Shown: piece after piece, positions 56,664-63,219 of the stretch
How positions within the stretch are numbered: the stretch's first letter is position 1
How the letters are laid out: each line of letters begins with the position of its first letter
Virus record (IMG/VR): IMGVR_UViG_3300020421_000007
Coordinates: 19,090-83,089 of that record
Source: a virus
Direction: 5' to 3' (one strand)
DNA: 64,000 nt
Notes under the pieces: generated by a model
The model's input: the letters and a program-made list of their open reading frames with translations, nothing else
Database searches by the model: none
Told to the model about the DNA's origin: nothing
Program-made: the position numbers and the translations under genes

Positions 56664-58390
56664 TTATTTTTAAAAAAATCCGTTGGAAAAATTTTCTTTC
56701 AACGGGTAATGTGTTTAGTGAAGTTGACTTAACAGGAGCAAAAACTAATCTGATCATTGGATCGAACGGTGCAGGAAAGAGCACTATTTTGGATGCTCTT
56801 ACTTTTTCTTTGTTTGGAAAACCATTCCGTAAAATTAATAAACCAATGCTAATTAATAGCATTAATGAAAAAGATTTGCTTACGGAGATTGAATTCTCTA
56901 TTGGTAAAAAAGAATACAAAGTTGTTAGGGGAGTAAAACCAAACGTATTTGAGATCTATTGTAATGATCAACTGTGGAATCAGGAAAGTTCTTTAGTAGA
57001 ACAGCAAAAGAACTTTGAGAATAATGTTCTCAAGATGAACTACAAGTCATTCACGCAGATCGTGGTGCTTGGTTCTTCTACGTTTGTTCCATTCATGCGT
57101 TTGCCCCTGGCACAACGTCGTGAGATCATCGAAGACATTCTTGATATCCAAGTATTCTCTACGATGAATGTTCTTCTGAAAGATAAAGTTCGTCAGAACA
57201 ACGAAGAGATCAAGACAATTGATTATGAAATTCATCTTCTAGAAGAGAAAATTGATCTCCAGAAAAAGTACATGCTGGAACTGGAGAAGAAAACTAAGGA
57301 AGAGATTACTCGTAAAGAAAATAAAATCTCTGAATTGTTAGAGAATGAAAACGAATATCATAATGAAGTTGCGCGTCTGACTTCTGAAGTTGAAAAACAT
57401 TCTGAAGAAATGAAAGAGGTGTCTAACAGCAGAGCAAAACTGAAGAAGTTAAACACTTTTCTTTTCAAAATACATTCTAAGTTAAAAACTTGTCAGAAAG
57501 AACATGATTTCTTTGCTAACAATCATGTTTGTCCTACATGCACTCAAGAGTTGGATGAGGAATTTAGACAAAGTAAAATTAGTGAGGGTGCCAGTGAGTT
57601 AAATAAAATGAATACTGGCGTCGAAGATCTTCTTTTGGAAATAGGAAAGGAAGAAGAACGAGAGCATAAATTTACTAGACTGTCTGATTCGGTCATGAAA
57701 TTAAATGCATCGATTAGTCAATCCAATTTTCAAATTACATCTATCAAGAAAATTATTTCTGACATTGAAGGTGAGATCAAAGAACTGGAAAGCAGCAACC
57801 CAGACAAGAAAGCAGAGTTTGTCAAACTAGAAGGTCTTGTAAAGAATAAAAAAGAATTGGGTGGCACACTAGCAGAGAACCGCAAGGACCGTGATACACT
57901 ATTGGTGGCATCGCAATTGTTAAAAGACAATGGTATCAAGACTAGGATTATTAAAACCTATCTTCCAGCGATGAACCAACTCATCAATCAGTATCTTCAG
58001 AGTATGGACTTTTATGTTAATTTTACCCTGAATGAGAACTTTGAGGAGATAATCAAATCTAGATACCGTGACGTGTTTTCATATGACAGTTTTAGTGAAG
58101 GAGAAAAGTCTCGTATTGATATCGCTCTTCTGCTTACTTGGCGTTCTATTGCTAAGCTTAAGAATTCTGTGGATACTAACCTATTGATTCTCGATGAGAT
58201 CTTTGACAGTTCTCTTGACCAGCAAGGAGGTTCTGATCTGGGGTGGATTCTACGTAACTTTGATGACAAGACAAATGTATATGTTATTAGTCATAGAGAA
58301 AGTTTAGAGGGAAAGTTCGAGAGAACTCTTACAGCAGTAAAAGAAAAAAACTTTTCTGTTATCCAGGAGTCAGTTTCGGAACTGGACTAG
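56660..58390 (+). CDS. 46: Recombination nuclease subunit gp46 (SbcC/Rad50-like)
   Basis: ATPase half of the gp46/gp47 nuclease (576 aa). P-loop GSNGAGKS (residues 34-41), a long coiled coil around a zinc hook CPTC (Cys291, Cys294), signature SFSEGEKSRIDIALLL, and Walker B NLLILDEIFDSS. Its TAG stop is part of the following terminator stem. Confidence 0.95.
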   Translation: MIIFKKIRWKNFLSTGNVFSEVDLTGAKTNLIIGSNGAGKSTILDALTFSLFGKPFRKINKPMLINSINEKDLLTEIEFSIGKKEYKVVRGVKPNVFEIYCNDQLWNQESSLVEQQKNFENNVLKMNYKSFTQIVVLGSSTFVPFMRLPLAQRREIIEDILDIQVFSTMNVLLKDKVRQNNEEIKTIDYEIHLLEEKIDLQKKYMLELEKKTKEEITRKENKISELLENENEYHNEVARLTSEVEKHSEEMKEVSNSRAKLKKLNTFLFKIHSKLKTCQKEHDFFANNHVCPTCTQELDEEFRQSKISEGASELNKMNTGVEDLLLEIGKEEEREHKFTRLSDSVMKLNASISQSNFQITSIKKIISDIEGEIKELESSNPDKKAEFVKLEGLVKNKKELGGTLAENRKDRDTLLVASQLLKDNGIKTRIIKTYLPAMNQLINQYLQSMDFYVNFTLNENFEEIIKSRYRDVFSYDSFSEGEKSRIDIALLLTWRSIAKLKNSVDTNLLILDEIFDSSLDQQGGSDLGWILRNFDDKTNVYVISHRESLEGKFERTLTAVKEKNFSVIQESVSELD

Positions 58391-58414
58391 GAGACCTTCG
58401 GGTCTCCTTTTTTT
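58389..58414 (+). terminator. UUCG-loop terminator overlapping the gp46 stop
   Basis: Eight-bp stem AGGAGACC/GGTCTCCT (58389-58396 with 58401-58408) closed by TTCG, then TTTTTTT. The stem starts in the TAG stop of gp46. Confidence 0.92.
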
Positions 58415-58419
58415 GTGGG

Positions 58420-58425
58420 TATACT
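58420..58425 (+). promoter_or_regulatory. Possible -10 box TATACT before the VWA gene
   Basis: TATACT directly after the terminator, 23 bases before the ATG at 58449; no good -35 is seen 17 bases upstream. Same -10 sequence as the gp55 promoter and as the one at 60641. Confidence 0.4.
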
Positions 58426-58448: not shown

Positions 58449-60599
58449 ATGAACCAGGAAATCAAAGGCAATCTTGCTCGCTTGCTCGCTACTGAAAACC
58501 TCATTGTAGAGCACCGTAAAGTTGGTACAGCATCGTTTGATGTTGACCGTCGTGTGTTGACTCTTCCTAATTGGGATCGTGCTTCTAACGTAGTATACGA
58601 TATGCTGGTGGGACATGAGGTAGGACATGCTCTGTTCACTCCCAATAAAGATTGGAGAGATATGTTTGATTGCCCTAAAGATTTTGTGAATGTCATTGAG
58701 GATGCTCGCATTGAGAAACTGATGAAACGTAAGTATCCTGGTCTTCGTAAGTCATTTGCTGGTGGTTATCGTGAACTAAATGATCAAGATTTCTTTTCTA
58801 TTGCTGATGAAGATCTCAACAATTTGAGTCTTATTGACCGTATCAATCTTCACTTTAAGATTGGAGCTAGTGCTATGATTCCTTTCTCTATTGAGGAGAA
58901 AGTATTTGTTGCACGTACTGACGTTGCTGAGACTTTTGAAGAAGTCTGTCAGATTGCTGTTGATGTTTATGAATTTTCTAAGCAAGAAAATACTGTTGAG
59001 GAAACTCCACAGGTAGAAGCATCATCATCATCTGAAGAAGGTCAGGATGAAACTGAAAGCATCGATGGTGAACAATCTGAGCAAAAAAATACTGAACAGG
59101 GTGAACAGTCTCCTGGTAGTGAGAATATTGAAGAAGACGATTACGAAGAAGAAGAATATGATGATCAATCTGTAGGTTCTGCTGGTGGAGAACATTCAGA
59201 AACCCAACGTAGTTTTGATAGTTCTGCTGAAAAATTAACTGATCGTTGGTCTAGCAATCCAGTTTACATTGAGATTCCTAAAACAATTAATACTTCTGAT
59301 GTTGTTGTTGATTGGACTACTATCCACAATTGGATTGATGAGCAACGCAATGAATTTTTAAATCGTGATTGTGATCATGATCGTTCTACTTATTATAGTA
59401 ATGTAGATAAATCTTACAAAGAGTTTCGTAAACAATCTCAGAAGGAAGTAAATTATCTTGTTAAAGAGTTTGAGTGCCGTAAGTCTGCTGACGCTTATGC
59501 TCGTGCTGGTCAATCTAAGACTGGTGTTCTTGATACTACTAAACTTCATACTTACAAGTATAACGAAGACCTTTTCAAAAAAGTAACTATTCTTCCTGAT
59601 GGCAAGAATCATGGTCTCTTGTTTGTTCTTGACTGGTCTGGTTCTATGTCAAACGAATTGCTTGCTACCGTTAAACAACTGTTAAACCTAACTGCTTTTT
59701 GTAAGAAAGTTCAAATTCCATTTGAAGTATATGCTTTTACTAACGAGTGGTATGCTGTAGATCGCATGATGAAAGGTCATCTTCCTGAAATGTCAAATGA
59801 CGATTATTTTGCGATGCTTGGTTGTGAGGAAGGTAAAATCTTTATGCATAAAGGTATGTTCCATATGTTGAACATGATCTCTTCACGTTCCAACAGTAAA
59901 GACTATGAGCGTATGTGTCTCAATCTATATCGTGAGGCATATTCTTATACATATCATGTTTCCTATCACTCCACTCAAGGTGTTGGTTTGTCTGGAACGC
60001 CATTAAATGAAGCGATTGTTATGCTTAATTACATCATTCCAGAATTTAAAAAATGTAATGATCTTCAGAAAGTCAATGTCTGTATCTTGACTGATGGTGA
60101 AAGTTGTCAAGTTGCTTATGGTCGTAAATATTATAGTGATCATAAAGATGAGCACTATGTTCGTCCTACTCGTATTGATCATTCCACTATTCTTCGTGAT
60201 CCTCAAACAGGACGTGTTTATCCTCAATCAAATGGGTGGGGATCTATGACTGCTACTCTTATCCAACAGGTTCGTGATCGTAATTTCGGTGTGAATATTC
60301 TTGGATTCCGTATCATGCCAGGTAGTCAGTTGTCTAGTTTTGTTTCTTCATACGGCGATCAAAGTAAGTATGAGGAAGTTCAAAAACAATGGAAGAAAGA
60401 TAAGTCTGCTATTATTCCTTTTCCCAAAGGTTATACAGCTCTCTATGCCATCAGTAACAATGCGTTGAGTGATGATGTTGAATTTGATGTGGAGAGTGGT
60501 GCTAAAAAAGGTGAGATCACTCGTGCATTTAAAAAGATGCTTAAAAATAAAACTACAAACAAAAAAATGCTCAACTCCTTTGTTGAGTATGTCGCTTGA
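58449..60599 (+). CDS. Zincin-motif and VWA-domain protein, CobT/NorD-like (716 aa)
   Basis: N-terminal part carries GHEVGHALF (His56-Glu57-x2-His60), the zinc protease motif HExxH, followed by NVIEDARIEKLMKRKYP with Glu residues that could be the third ligand. Residues about 185-265 are very acidic and low complexity (EEDDYEEEEYDD). The C-terminal half has a von Willebrand A domain with MIDAS Asp395-x-Ser397-x-Ser399 (LDWSGSMS) and LTDGES. This order resembles CobT and other VWA partners of MoxR ATPases. The next gene is such an ATPase. Often labelled peptidase in cyanophages; activity unproven. Confidence 0.8.
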   Translation: MNQEIKGNLARLLATENLIVEHRKVGTASFDVDRRVLTLPNWDRASNVVYDMLVGHEVGHALFTPNKDWRDMFDCPKDFVNVIEDARIEKLMKRKYPGLRKSFAGGYRELNDQDFFSIADEDLNNLSLIDRINLHFKIGASAMIPFSIEEKVFVARTDVAETFEEVCQIAVDVYEFSKQENTVEETPQVEASSSSEEGQDETESIDGEQSEQKNTEQGEQSPGSENIEEDDYEEEEYDDQSVGSAGGEHSETQRSFDSSAEKLTDRWSSNPVYIEIPKTINTSDVVVDWTTIHNWIDEQRNEFLNRDCDHDRSTYYSNVDKSYKEFRKQSQKEVNYLVKEFECRKSADAYARAGQSKTGVLDTTKLHTYKYNEDLFKKVTILPDGKNHGLLFVLDWSGSMSNELLATVKQLLNLTAFCKKVQIPFEVYAFTNEWYAVDRMMKGHLPEMSNDDYFAMLGCEEGKIFMHKGMFHMLNMISSRSNSKDYERMCLNLYREAYSYTYHVSYHSTQGVGLSGTPLNEAIVMLNYIIPEFKKCNDLQKVNVCILTDGESCQVAYGRKYYSDHKDEHYVRPTRIDHSTILRDPQTGRVYPQSNGWGSMTATLIQQVRDRNFGVNILGFRIMPGSQLSSFVSSYGDQSKYEEVQKQWKKDKSAIIPFPKGYTALYAISNNALSDDVEFDVESGAKKGEITRAFKKMLKNKTTNKKMLNSFVEYVA

Positions 60600-60613
60600 C
60601 GAACCGTCCACCA

Positions 60614-60630
60614 GGGGTCGCTGAGACCCC
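60614..60630 (+). other. GC-rich hairpin between the VWA and ATPase genes
   Basis: GGGGTC/GACCCC stem with GCTGA loop, 15 bases after the VWA stop, with no T run after it. It may be an attenuator or RNA-processing site rather than a full terminator. Confidence 0.4.
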
Positions 60631-60640
60631 ACCCTTGCCC

Positions 60641-60646
60641 TATACT
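60641..60646 (+). promoter_or_regulatory. Possible -10 box TATACT before the CobS-like gene
   Basis: TATACT 21 bases before the ATG at 60668; no -35 is visible at the right distance. Third copy of this -10 in the window (54586, 58420, 60641). Confidence 0.35.
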
Positions 60647-60667
60647 TACTTCATACGAAACAAACCA

Positions 60668-61774
60668 ATGCCTGCCAAGTCCGACCTGACCACCACACAA
60701 CTTACTTCTTACCTGTCTGAAACTTACGGCAACGACATTAATGCTGAGCATGTTCGTGCTGCCTGTGATAACTTTGGTGTTACCTATCCCACTGCTGTCA
60801 AGCGTCTGCGCGACTTCTATGTCAAGCGTGGCACTTGGAACCTGACTGTTCAAGAACGTCTTGAGCAACAATACGTAGCACCTGCTGCTACTCCTGCTGT
60901 TATGGAGACTGTTGAGCAAAACCTTGTTCCTTCTAAAGATGAAAACTATGTTCCCTTTGGTAATTTTTCTGATGTAAAGAAAATTATCCAATCTGGTATT
61001 TTCTATCCGACTTTTATTACTGGAATGTCGGGTAATGGTAAGACTTTCTCTGTTGAGCAAGCATGTGCTGCTCTAAATAGAGAACTGATTCGGGTAAACA
61101 TTACCATTGAAACAGACGAGGATGATCTTATTGGTGGTTTCCGTCTTGTTAACGGCGAAACTGTTTGGCATAATGGTCCTGTCATCGAAGCTTTGGAGCG
61201 GGGAGCTGTGCTGCTTTTAGATGAGGTTGACCTTGCTTCTAACAAGATCCTGTGTCTCCAATCTGTGTTGGAAGGCAAAGGTGTTTTTCTGAAGAAGACT
61301 GGTCGCTATGTCAATCCTGCTGCTGGATTTAACATCATCGCTACTGCCAACACCAAGGGTAAGGGTTCTGATGATGGTCGTTTTATTGGCACCAATGTTC
61401 TTAACGAAGCATTTCTTGAGCGTTTTGCTCTGACCTTTGAGCAAGAGTATCCTACTCCTTCTGTTGAAACTAAGATCCTGCTGCGTGTTGCTGCATCTCT
61501 TGGTAAACATGATGAAGAGTTCTGTACCAACCTTGCTAACTGGGCAGACATCATCCGCCGTACTTTCAAGGATGGTGGTATCGACGAGGTGATCAGCACC
61601 CGTCGCCTGGTTCACATCATGCGAGCATATGCTATCTGGAATGATCGCATGAAGGCAATCAAGGTATGTGTGAACCGTTTCGATGATGAAACCAAACAGT
61701 CATTCATCGAATTGTATGATAAAATTGATGCTGACGTTTCTACGGAGGAAGAAGATGCCACAAACCAAGACTGA
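60668..61774 (+). CDS. cobS: MoxR-type AAA+ ATPase, CobS-like (368 aa)
   Basis: AAA+ ATPase with Walker A GMSGNGKT (residues 119-126), Walker B LLLDEVD (Asp185-Glu186), a sensor IIATANTKG and arginine finger region NEAFLERFALTF. The N-terminal 60 residues include a small helical domain. It is labelled CobS (cobalt chelatase subunit) in cyanophages, but no cobN is in this window and the partner gene upstream is a VWA protein, as in MoxR/VWA chaperone pairs. ATG at 60668 used; a strong ribosome site for the next gene overlaps its 3' end. Confidence 0.88.
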   Translation: MPAKSDLTTTQLTSYLSETYGNDINAEHVRAACDNFGVTYPTAVKRLRDFYVKRGTWNLTVQERLEQQYVAPAATPAVMETVEQNLVPSKDENYVPFGNFSDVKKIIQSGIFYPTFITGMSGNGKTFSVEQACAALNRELIRVNITIETDEDDLIGGFRLVNGETVWHNGPVIEALERGAVLLLDEVDLASNKILCLQSVLEGKGVFLKKTGRYVNPAAGFNIIATANTKGKGSDDGRFIGTNVLNEAFLERFALTFEQEYPTPSVETKILLRVAASLGKHDEEFCTNLANWADIIRRTFKDGGIDEVISTRRLVHIMRAYAIWNDRMKAIKVCVNRFDDETKQSFIELYDKIDADVSTEEEDATNQD

Positions 61775-62219: not shown

Positions 62220-62887
62220 GCAAAGTTATTCTATCTAAAAAGACTCTAGATGTCCTCAAAAACTTTTCCACAATCAACTCGTCCATCGTATTCCGAAAGG
62301 GAAGCACTGTACGCACTATCAGCAATGCGGAAAACATTCTCGCAAAATTTACTGGCGAAGAAGTATTTCCTACTGACTTCGCAATTTATGATCTCAGTCA
62401 GTTTCTTAGTGGTATCTCTTTGTTTAATGATCCTCAACTGGAATTTACCAGTGGCGATTTTGTTAACATCCGTGGGGGTCGTCAGTCTGCTAAGTATTAC
62501 TTCTCGGATCCTGAGATTACGCTCAAGAGTGCTCCAGAAAAAAATGTAAAATTCCCTGGTGCTGATGTTCAATTTAATTTGACAGGAGAAGAACTAGTTC
62601 AACTTCAGAAAGCATCAGCTGTTTACAGTTTACCAGATCTTACTTTCTTTTCAGAAGAAGGTTCTAACGAAATCAAACTAATCCTCCGTGACAAGGAGAA
62701 TGATACCAGCAATACTTACGATCTCACGGTGGCAGGTAATGTTACTGGCACCTATTCTCTTGATCTTAAGATTGAAAACATTCGTCTTCTCCCTGGTGAT
62801 TACACTGTCAAAGTTTCCCAACACCTTATTTCTGAATGGACTAACGTAAACGCTGACCTTACATACTACATCGCACTGGAACCTTGA
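62216..62887 (+). CDS. 45: Sliding clamp gp45
   Basis: DNA polymerase processivity clamp (223 aa, T4 228) and in T4 also the coactivator of late transcription. Starts MSKVILSKKTLDVLKNFSTI; other matches NSSIVFRKGSTVRTISNAEN and FPTDFAIYDLSQFLSGISLF. Stop overlaps the speD start (TTGA). gp44 lies one gene downstream, as in cyanophages. Confidence 0.93.
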   Translation: MSKVILSKKTLDVLKNFSTINSSIVFRKGSTVRTISNAENILAKFTGEEVFPTDFAIYDLSQFLSGISLFNDPQLEFTSGDFVNIRGGRQSAKYYFSDPEITLKSAPEKNVKFPGADVQFNLTGEELVQLQKASAVYSLPDLTFFSEEGSNEIKLILRDKENDTSNTYDLTVAGNVTGTYSLDLKIENIRLLPGDYTVKVSQHLISEWTNVNADLTYYIALEP

Positions 62888-63219
62888 AGCATTTGCTTTT
62901 CACACTTAAAGACTGCACTCGCGATCTTTTGGATGACGAAGAGTTTATTAGAGACATCGTTTACACTGCTTCCAAAAAATGTAAGTCAACTTTGCTAGCA
63001 ATCAATTCACATAGGTTTGAACCACAAGGTGTAACTTGTGTTGCTATGCTAGCAGAGAGTCATATTAGTATTCACACTTGGCCAGAAAAAGGTATGGCAG
63101 TCTGCGATATCTTTACCTGTGGTGAGCATACCAAACCCAAGAGGGGTATGGAGTATATGCAAATGATGTTTACTGCCAAAGACATCACATTTAAATCATT
63201 TACACGACCATTAGAATGA
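62884..63219 (+). CDS. speD: S-adenosylmethionine decarboxylase
   Basis: Makes decarboxylated SAM for spermidine synthesis. The autocleavage pair is Glu58-Ser59 (LAESHISIHTWPE), and His64 and Cys79 sit at the same spacing as in bacterial SpeD (Ser63, His68, Cys83 in T. maritima). 111 aa, a short pro-enzyme. Starts with TTG at 62884 overlapping the gp45 stop; ends on the gp44 start. A known cyanophage auxiliary gene placed between two replication genes. Confidence 0.9.
   Translation: MKHLLFTLKDCTRDLLDDEEFIRDIVYTASKKCKSTLLAINSHRFEPQGVTCVAMLAESHISIHTWPEKGMAVCDIFTCGEHTKPKRGMEYMQMMFTAKDITFKSFTRPLE

Follow-up and report, generated by a model that had tools for sequence, protein, structure and literature searches.

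A pair of neighbouring cyanophage genes – one encoding a protein in which a predicted metallopeptidase domain is joined to a VWA domain, the other a MoxR/CobS-type AAA+ ATPase – is best read as specifying an ATP-dependent MoxR-VWA chaperone/metalloprotease that is used before virion assembly and is not primarily a cobalt chelatase: we put the probability of this reading at about 60%. Among marine cyanophages, cobS is often cited as an 'auxiliary metabolic gene'. If the chaperone-protease reading is true, then a common B12 interpretation in marine viral ecology is wrong, and very abundant marine phages possess a core activity whose target active-site mutants would bring within direct reach.

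Location and distribution of the gene pair

The window (the whole stretch of DNA analysed here, 64,000 nt) corresponds to positions 19090-83089 of a source record of 83,089 bases, which is a fragment (83 kb) of a T4-like, Kyanoviridae-like cyanophage. The right part of the window carries, in order, uvsW, an Sm-like protein, gp55, gp47, gp46, the VWA gene, the AAA+ gene, two small genes, gp45 and speD; near-identical gene order is evident in two complete Kyanoviridae, Synechococcus phage S-H9-1 and Prochlorococcus phage Syn1. The pair sits between gp46 and the gp45 clamp gene, in the replication/recombination module. Directly 3' of the sliding clamp gene, speD (62884-63219) encodes S-adenosylmethionine decarboxylase (AdoMet_dc, E 6.3e-36).

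By tblastn the VWA protein was found in 463 phage records, nearly all from cyanophages, with identities of up to 71% among the matches listed. Most of these records label it 'peptidase', while the AAA+ protein is mostly labelled CobS or porphyrin biosynthesis. Record counts are equal for the two genes (Synechococcus 365, Cyanophage 61, Prochlorococcus 24), and wherever a locus has the AAA+ gene (112 of 112) it lies on the same strand as the VWA gene, downstream and within 3.6 kb; in the 12 loci that lack it, less than 1 kb of contig remains. Neighbouring, co-directional and co-occurring in the manner of a MoxR-VWA pair, the two genes are core in the Kyanoviridae-like cyanophage group.

Homologues range across cyanophages, pelagiphages and SSU5-like phages, and HExxH, NxxED and MIDAS are kept in nearly all of those checked; relatives of the pair are present in phages that infect SAR11 or E. 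coli K-12. Distant pairs adjoin the gene for DNA polymerase III alpha in SSU5 and PhiR41_1, and lie near it in B1VFA and near primase/helicase in ICP2. A scan of genome contigs for cellular proteins related to the full-length phage protein returned at least four loci; every one lies in a draft metagenome assembly and is probably on a phage contig.

Domains and motifs of the two proteins

The VWA gene (58449-60599, plus strand, ATG at 58449) encodes 716 aa and falls in PHROG 459 ('peptidase'; 'CobT-like' in phages). The original prediction – an HExxH motif, an acidic linker and a VWA MIDAS in one protein, followed by a MoxR/CobS AAA+ gene – is borne out. The N-terminal zincin-like domain (aa 1-185; 58449-59003), so called from its predicted fold and invariant putative ligand residues, contains HEVGH (aa 56-60; 58614-58628) and NVIEDARIE (aa 81-89; 58689-58715). 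Next comes an acidic linker modelled with low confidence (aa 186-246; 59004-59186; pLDDT < 50), 22 of whose 61 residues are D or E. The VWA core, taken from MIDAS to second Asp (59631-60098), is recognized from its motifs, a profile match to CobT and a fold match to NorD. Both parts of the MIDAS are present in this VWA fold: DWSGSM (DxSxS; aa 395-400; 59631-59648) and LTDG (aa 547-550; 60087-60098), which holds the second Asp; DWSGSM and the DG of LTDG are invariant. All of these features lie on the plus strand.

The chance expectation of one HExxH in such a protein is ~0.035, and the motif alone is therefore no proof: it is conservation that supplies it. When 13 phage proteins that have diverged to identities as low as 15% are aligned, H56, E57, H60, N81, D85, D395, S397, S399 and D549 do not vary, and E84 is conserved in at least 90%. 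E84 and D85 are both invariant in another alignment, which includes a homologue set picked by HExxH-containing patterns, a set that alone is not taken as evidence of conservation. Among IMG/VR homologues retrieved by patterns without HExxH, all 26 that have the N-terminus carry HExxH, NxxED and MIDAS; loss of HExxH in close homologues, looked for as a refutation of the original prediction, was not found. Gordonia phage Chidiebere has HExxH, NVLEDQRIE and a DASGSM MIDAS, and Gordonia phage Charianelly has HEIGH and DISGST and is without a clear NxxED. In Pseudoalteromonas phage vB_Psh_XG4 (locus L041, 4851-7109) the peptidase (HEVSH, NIVEDIRIE) and the VWA protein (DFSWSM) appear as separate ORFs, which suggests that the two domains may act as separate subunits. 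The XG4 ORFs stand in reversed order, upstream of the AAA+ gene.

The AlphaFold2 model of aa 1-184 (mean pLDDT 85.9, pTM 0.83) comprises three short strands, the HExxH helix and then a second helix with NxxED. Foldseek searches of the PDB gave as best matches the minigluzincins selecase, abylysin and jannalysin, together with ArdC; the E-values are weak (0.06-0.2, best 0.063), with probabilities mostly of 0.75-1.00 (best 1.00). Among viral models the same domain turns up in proteins of phages and haloarchaeal viruses that bear the names VWFA or CobT; SprT-like proteins match it more weakly. The N-domain is predicted to be a small zincin whose nearest solved folds are minigluzincins. It shares with these, and with ArdC/SprT/IrrE-like zincins, an HExxH helix after which comes a second helix bearing the conserved Glu-Asp, although the fold match is weak by E-value; we know of no VWA partner for the solved proteins of these kinds. 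HExxH and a candidate downstream ligand (E84 or D85) in this predicted fold, again with weak E-values, correspond to the arrangement of a gluzincin. The VWA domain matches other VWA domains, among the best of them NorD in complex with NorQ (NorQD).

The AAA+ gene (60668-61774, plus strand, ATG at 60668) encodes a 368-aa MoxR/CobS-type ATPase (PHROG 249, 'porphyrin biosynthesis') with Walker A (GMSGNGKT), Walker B (LLLDEVD), sensor 1 (ATAN) and Arg-finger-like ERF and STRR motifs. It matches Pfam AAA_5 (E 2.2e-19) and, barely, CbbQ_C (21.8 bits, cut-off 20.6), and so has the marks of MoxR-type ATPases of the AAA_5/CbbQ-CobS branch. Its best single-domain match in the PDB is CobS (83.8 bits vs 60.7 for NorQ); CbbQ is matched too. 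In a tree of AAA+ proteins the Kyanoviridae ATPases form a group of their own apart from bacterial CobS, the deep order of the tree being unsafe because of long branches. AAA+ relatives in Staphylococcus, Lactobacillus, Acinetobacter and Mycobacterium phages were not counted as the same system, because the tested neighbour gene is without the HExxH/VWA partner and they fall in their own clade. In Acinetobacter and Mycobacterium phages (L174, 4479-6695; L175, 1987-4283) a MoxR-like AAA+ gene is followed by one for a DUF7192 protein in place of the VWA partner, possibly a different two-gene system.

Predicted promoters of the pair

A hairpin resembling an intrinsic terminator (GGAGACCTTCGGGTCTCC plus a T run; 58390-58415, plus strand) separates gp46 from the pair, and most close relatives have a hairpin with T run in the corresponding position. 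Each gene is preceded on the plus strand by a sigma70-like -10 motif, TATACT: at 58420-58425, 29 nt before the VWA ATG, and at 60641-60646, 27 nt before the AAA+ ATG. These boxes belong to a conserved TATAMT-N5-7-CATCAAC signature, of which the CATCAAC-like downstream block is kept in close relatives. This promoter-like signature, distinct from the late octamer NATAAATA, lies 27-33 nt before some cyanophage genes (window 58420 and 60641; loci L168-L171), and in S-H9-1 it precedes a helicase gene and small ORFs.

Late-promoter octamers stand before eight genes in the window, from 379 to 51626, including those for portal, scaffold and tail tube; none was found before the VWA or the AAA+ gene. 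Judging from these motifs, both genes appear to have sigma70-like, not late, promoters. The same -10 position also occurs before 50758 (minor-coat-like) and 40473, a point against this reading of the promoter class. The promoters, the location between gp46 and gp45 and the replication-gene neighbours in unrelated phages together favor – as far as motifs and synteny can indicate – a role before virion assembly. Neither expression timing nor virion proteomics for the pair was found in the literature searched.

Remodelling, chelation or assembly

The pair resembles CobS/CobT of the CobNST system in joining an AAA+ ATPase to a VWA protein with an acidic linker: the VWA domains are homologous (profile match of the phage domain to CobT, E 5.6e-21) and the N-domains are probably so, by way of SSU5-type proteins. 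It differs in several respects. Against the CobS equivalog model TIGR01650 the AAA+ protein scores 73 bits, where the curated cut-off is 558.55. The VWA protein of the window has no Pfam match at E <= 1, neither to CobT (PF06213) nor to CobT_C (PF11775); its SSU5 and PhiR41_1 relatives exceed the cut-offs of both. Unlike the phage proteins with their HExxH and NxxED, none of 33 alphaproteobacterial CobT ORFs has HExxH at the corresponding place: most have RG-x-A-D-x-x-A-L followed by ARxE, and one (L148) has a single HEPAH farther along, outside the N-domain. Neither the 83-kb fragment itself nor any of 13 complete genomes of phages that carry the pair, or relatives of it, yielded CobN, the large subunit of the CobNST complex. 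The claim that the pair is 'not just CobS' is well supported on all three counts – ATPase, partner and CobN – and the cobN-like gene sought as its refutation did not appear. That absence had also been offered as support for a chaperone, for which it is weak evidence: CobN is present in the cyanobacterial control Synechococcus elongatus and cyanobacteria are without cobS/cobT (PMC9227772), so that a phage could borrow the CobN of its host, as has been argued in print.

This argument, made by Liu et al. 2021 (PMC8651126), is that phage CobST hijacks CobN; put forward for the tailed viruses of haloarchaea and applied to cyanophages as well, it treats the cyanophage 'peptidase' annotation as a mistake for cobT. 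Phage cobaltochelatase subunits would join host CobN and raise the supply of cobalamin (pseudo-B12) for nucleotide synthesis. Such a role has in its favor the homology of the VWA half to CobT, the rank of CobS among PDB matches and the gene content of cyanobacteria, and yet we hold it to be unlikely. The AAA+ protein falls short of the CobS model by a wide margin, and chelation leaves unexplained an invariant HExxH that the 33 real CobTs lack – a putative zinc site whose invariance argues that the 'peptidase' annotation is not simply mistaken. Moreover, S-H9-1, a complete close relative, has a class I ribonucleotide reductase (NrdA/NrdB) which, having the NrdB small subunit, is itself B12-independent. 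The relatives of the pair in phages of SAR11 and E. coli K-12 also tell against chelation: to our knowledge neither host makes corrins de novo, and no statement on corrin synthesis in SAR11 was found in the literature searched. According to a review (PMC5083919), the cobS of cyanophages is no true homologue of the bacterial gene; elsewhere the gene is used as a marker of cyanophage communities and is listed under vitamin B12 synthesis (PMC9983427).

Iyer et al. 2021 (PMC7824862) described the same two-gene architecture, a MoxR AAA+ with a vWA protein carrying a fused N-terminal metallopeptidase, in group 2.2 jumbo phages and, by analogy with an archaeal tail-assembly MoxR-vWA, proposed assembly and processing of structural proteins. 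A chaperone and processing protease of this kind seems decidedly improbable for the present pair, which is core in T4-like cyanophages of ordinary size: its genes have sigma70-like promoters and not the late promoters of the eight structural-region genes, they are located in the replication/recombination module, and S-H9-1 separately encodes both a prohead protease and a subtilisin-like one. The HExxH domain might instead be a pseudo-peptidase with a structural zinc-binding or a peptide-binding function, MoxR-VWA remodelling being all that matters; CobT seems to retain the domain after loss of the site, as the alignment of SSU5-type proteins with CobT indicates. This we consider very improbable, since E57, the catalytic Glu, varies no more than the ligands do and a purely structural site need not retain it. 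The architecture and the chaperone/processing idea had already been published for jumbo phages; what is new here is that the zinc-site motif is invariant throughout the core family of cyanophages and in distant phages and is missing from CobT, together with the failure of the ATPase at the CobS cut-off and the promoter class.

The MoxR-VWA chaperone/metalloprotease is the reading that we prefer. The unbroken co-direction of the two genes and their equal record counts, like the AAA+ motifs and the MIDAS, are consistent with a MoxR-VWA machine, and the additional zincin domain points to a coupling of remodelling with cutting. NorQ/NorD and CbbQ/CbbO likewise pair a MoxR AAA+ with a VWA partner, and the phage proteins match the NorD VWA domain, NorQ and CbbQ; in the phages, however, the partner bears a zincin domain and no metalloenzyme client gene adjoins. 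By analogy with NorQ-NorD, CobS-CobT and RavA-ViaA, a hexameric AAA+ motor would dock on the VWA domain of its partner. The MIDAS would bind a substrate peptide, ATP hydrolysis would remodel the substrate, and the minigluzincin-like zinc domain, tethered by the acidic linker and with its ligand set intact, may then cut it. The target, we would guess, is most likely some protein complex, of the phage or of its host, that serves replication, recombination or transcription. The literature searched reports neither protease activity nor a substrate or complex for any family member. The original prediction of remodelling rather than B12 synthesis is partly supported: its non-CobS part is well supported, and the remodelling of host or phage complexes is an inference. 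Because the phage VWA domain is truly related to that of CobT, a chelatase-type role retains some probability.

The relationship to CobT may extend to the zinc domain. SSU5-type proteins keep HEVAH or HEVGH although they match the Pfam CobT families, and their N-domain aligns with that of CobT (hhalign probability 77%, E 2e-5), HEVAH lying opposite DAYAL; the direct comparison of the phage N-domain set with the CobT N-domain is non-significant (probability 4%, E 0.003), only the SSU5-type bridge being significant. Bacterial CobT therefore looks like a relative whose active site has presumably decayed. We propose, tentatively and at somewhat less than even odds, that CobT descends from a metalloprotease-VWA protein, of which tailed viruses keep an active, ATP-driven AAA+/VWA form deployed early in infection. 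Were this true, the 'cobS' that nearly all cyanophages carry, and that marine virome studies count as a metabolic gene for vitamin B12, would be half of a protein-processing machine. Among 57 alphaproteobacterial genomes sampled (from G001-G060), CobT (PF06213) is present in 46 and CobN in 27; 20 of the 46 CobT-bearing genomes, some of which may be incomplete, have no CobN match, and the Caulobacter control likewise has CobT without CobN. In cells, CobST may serve some function other than B12 synthesis.
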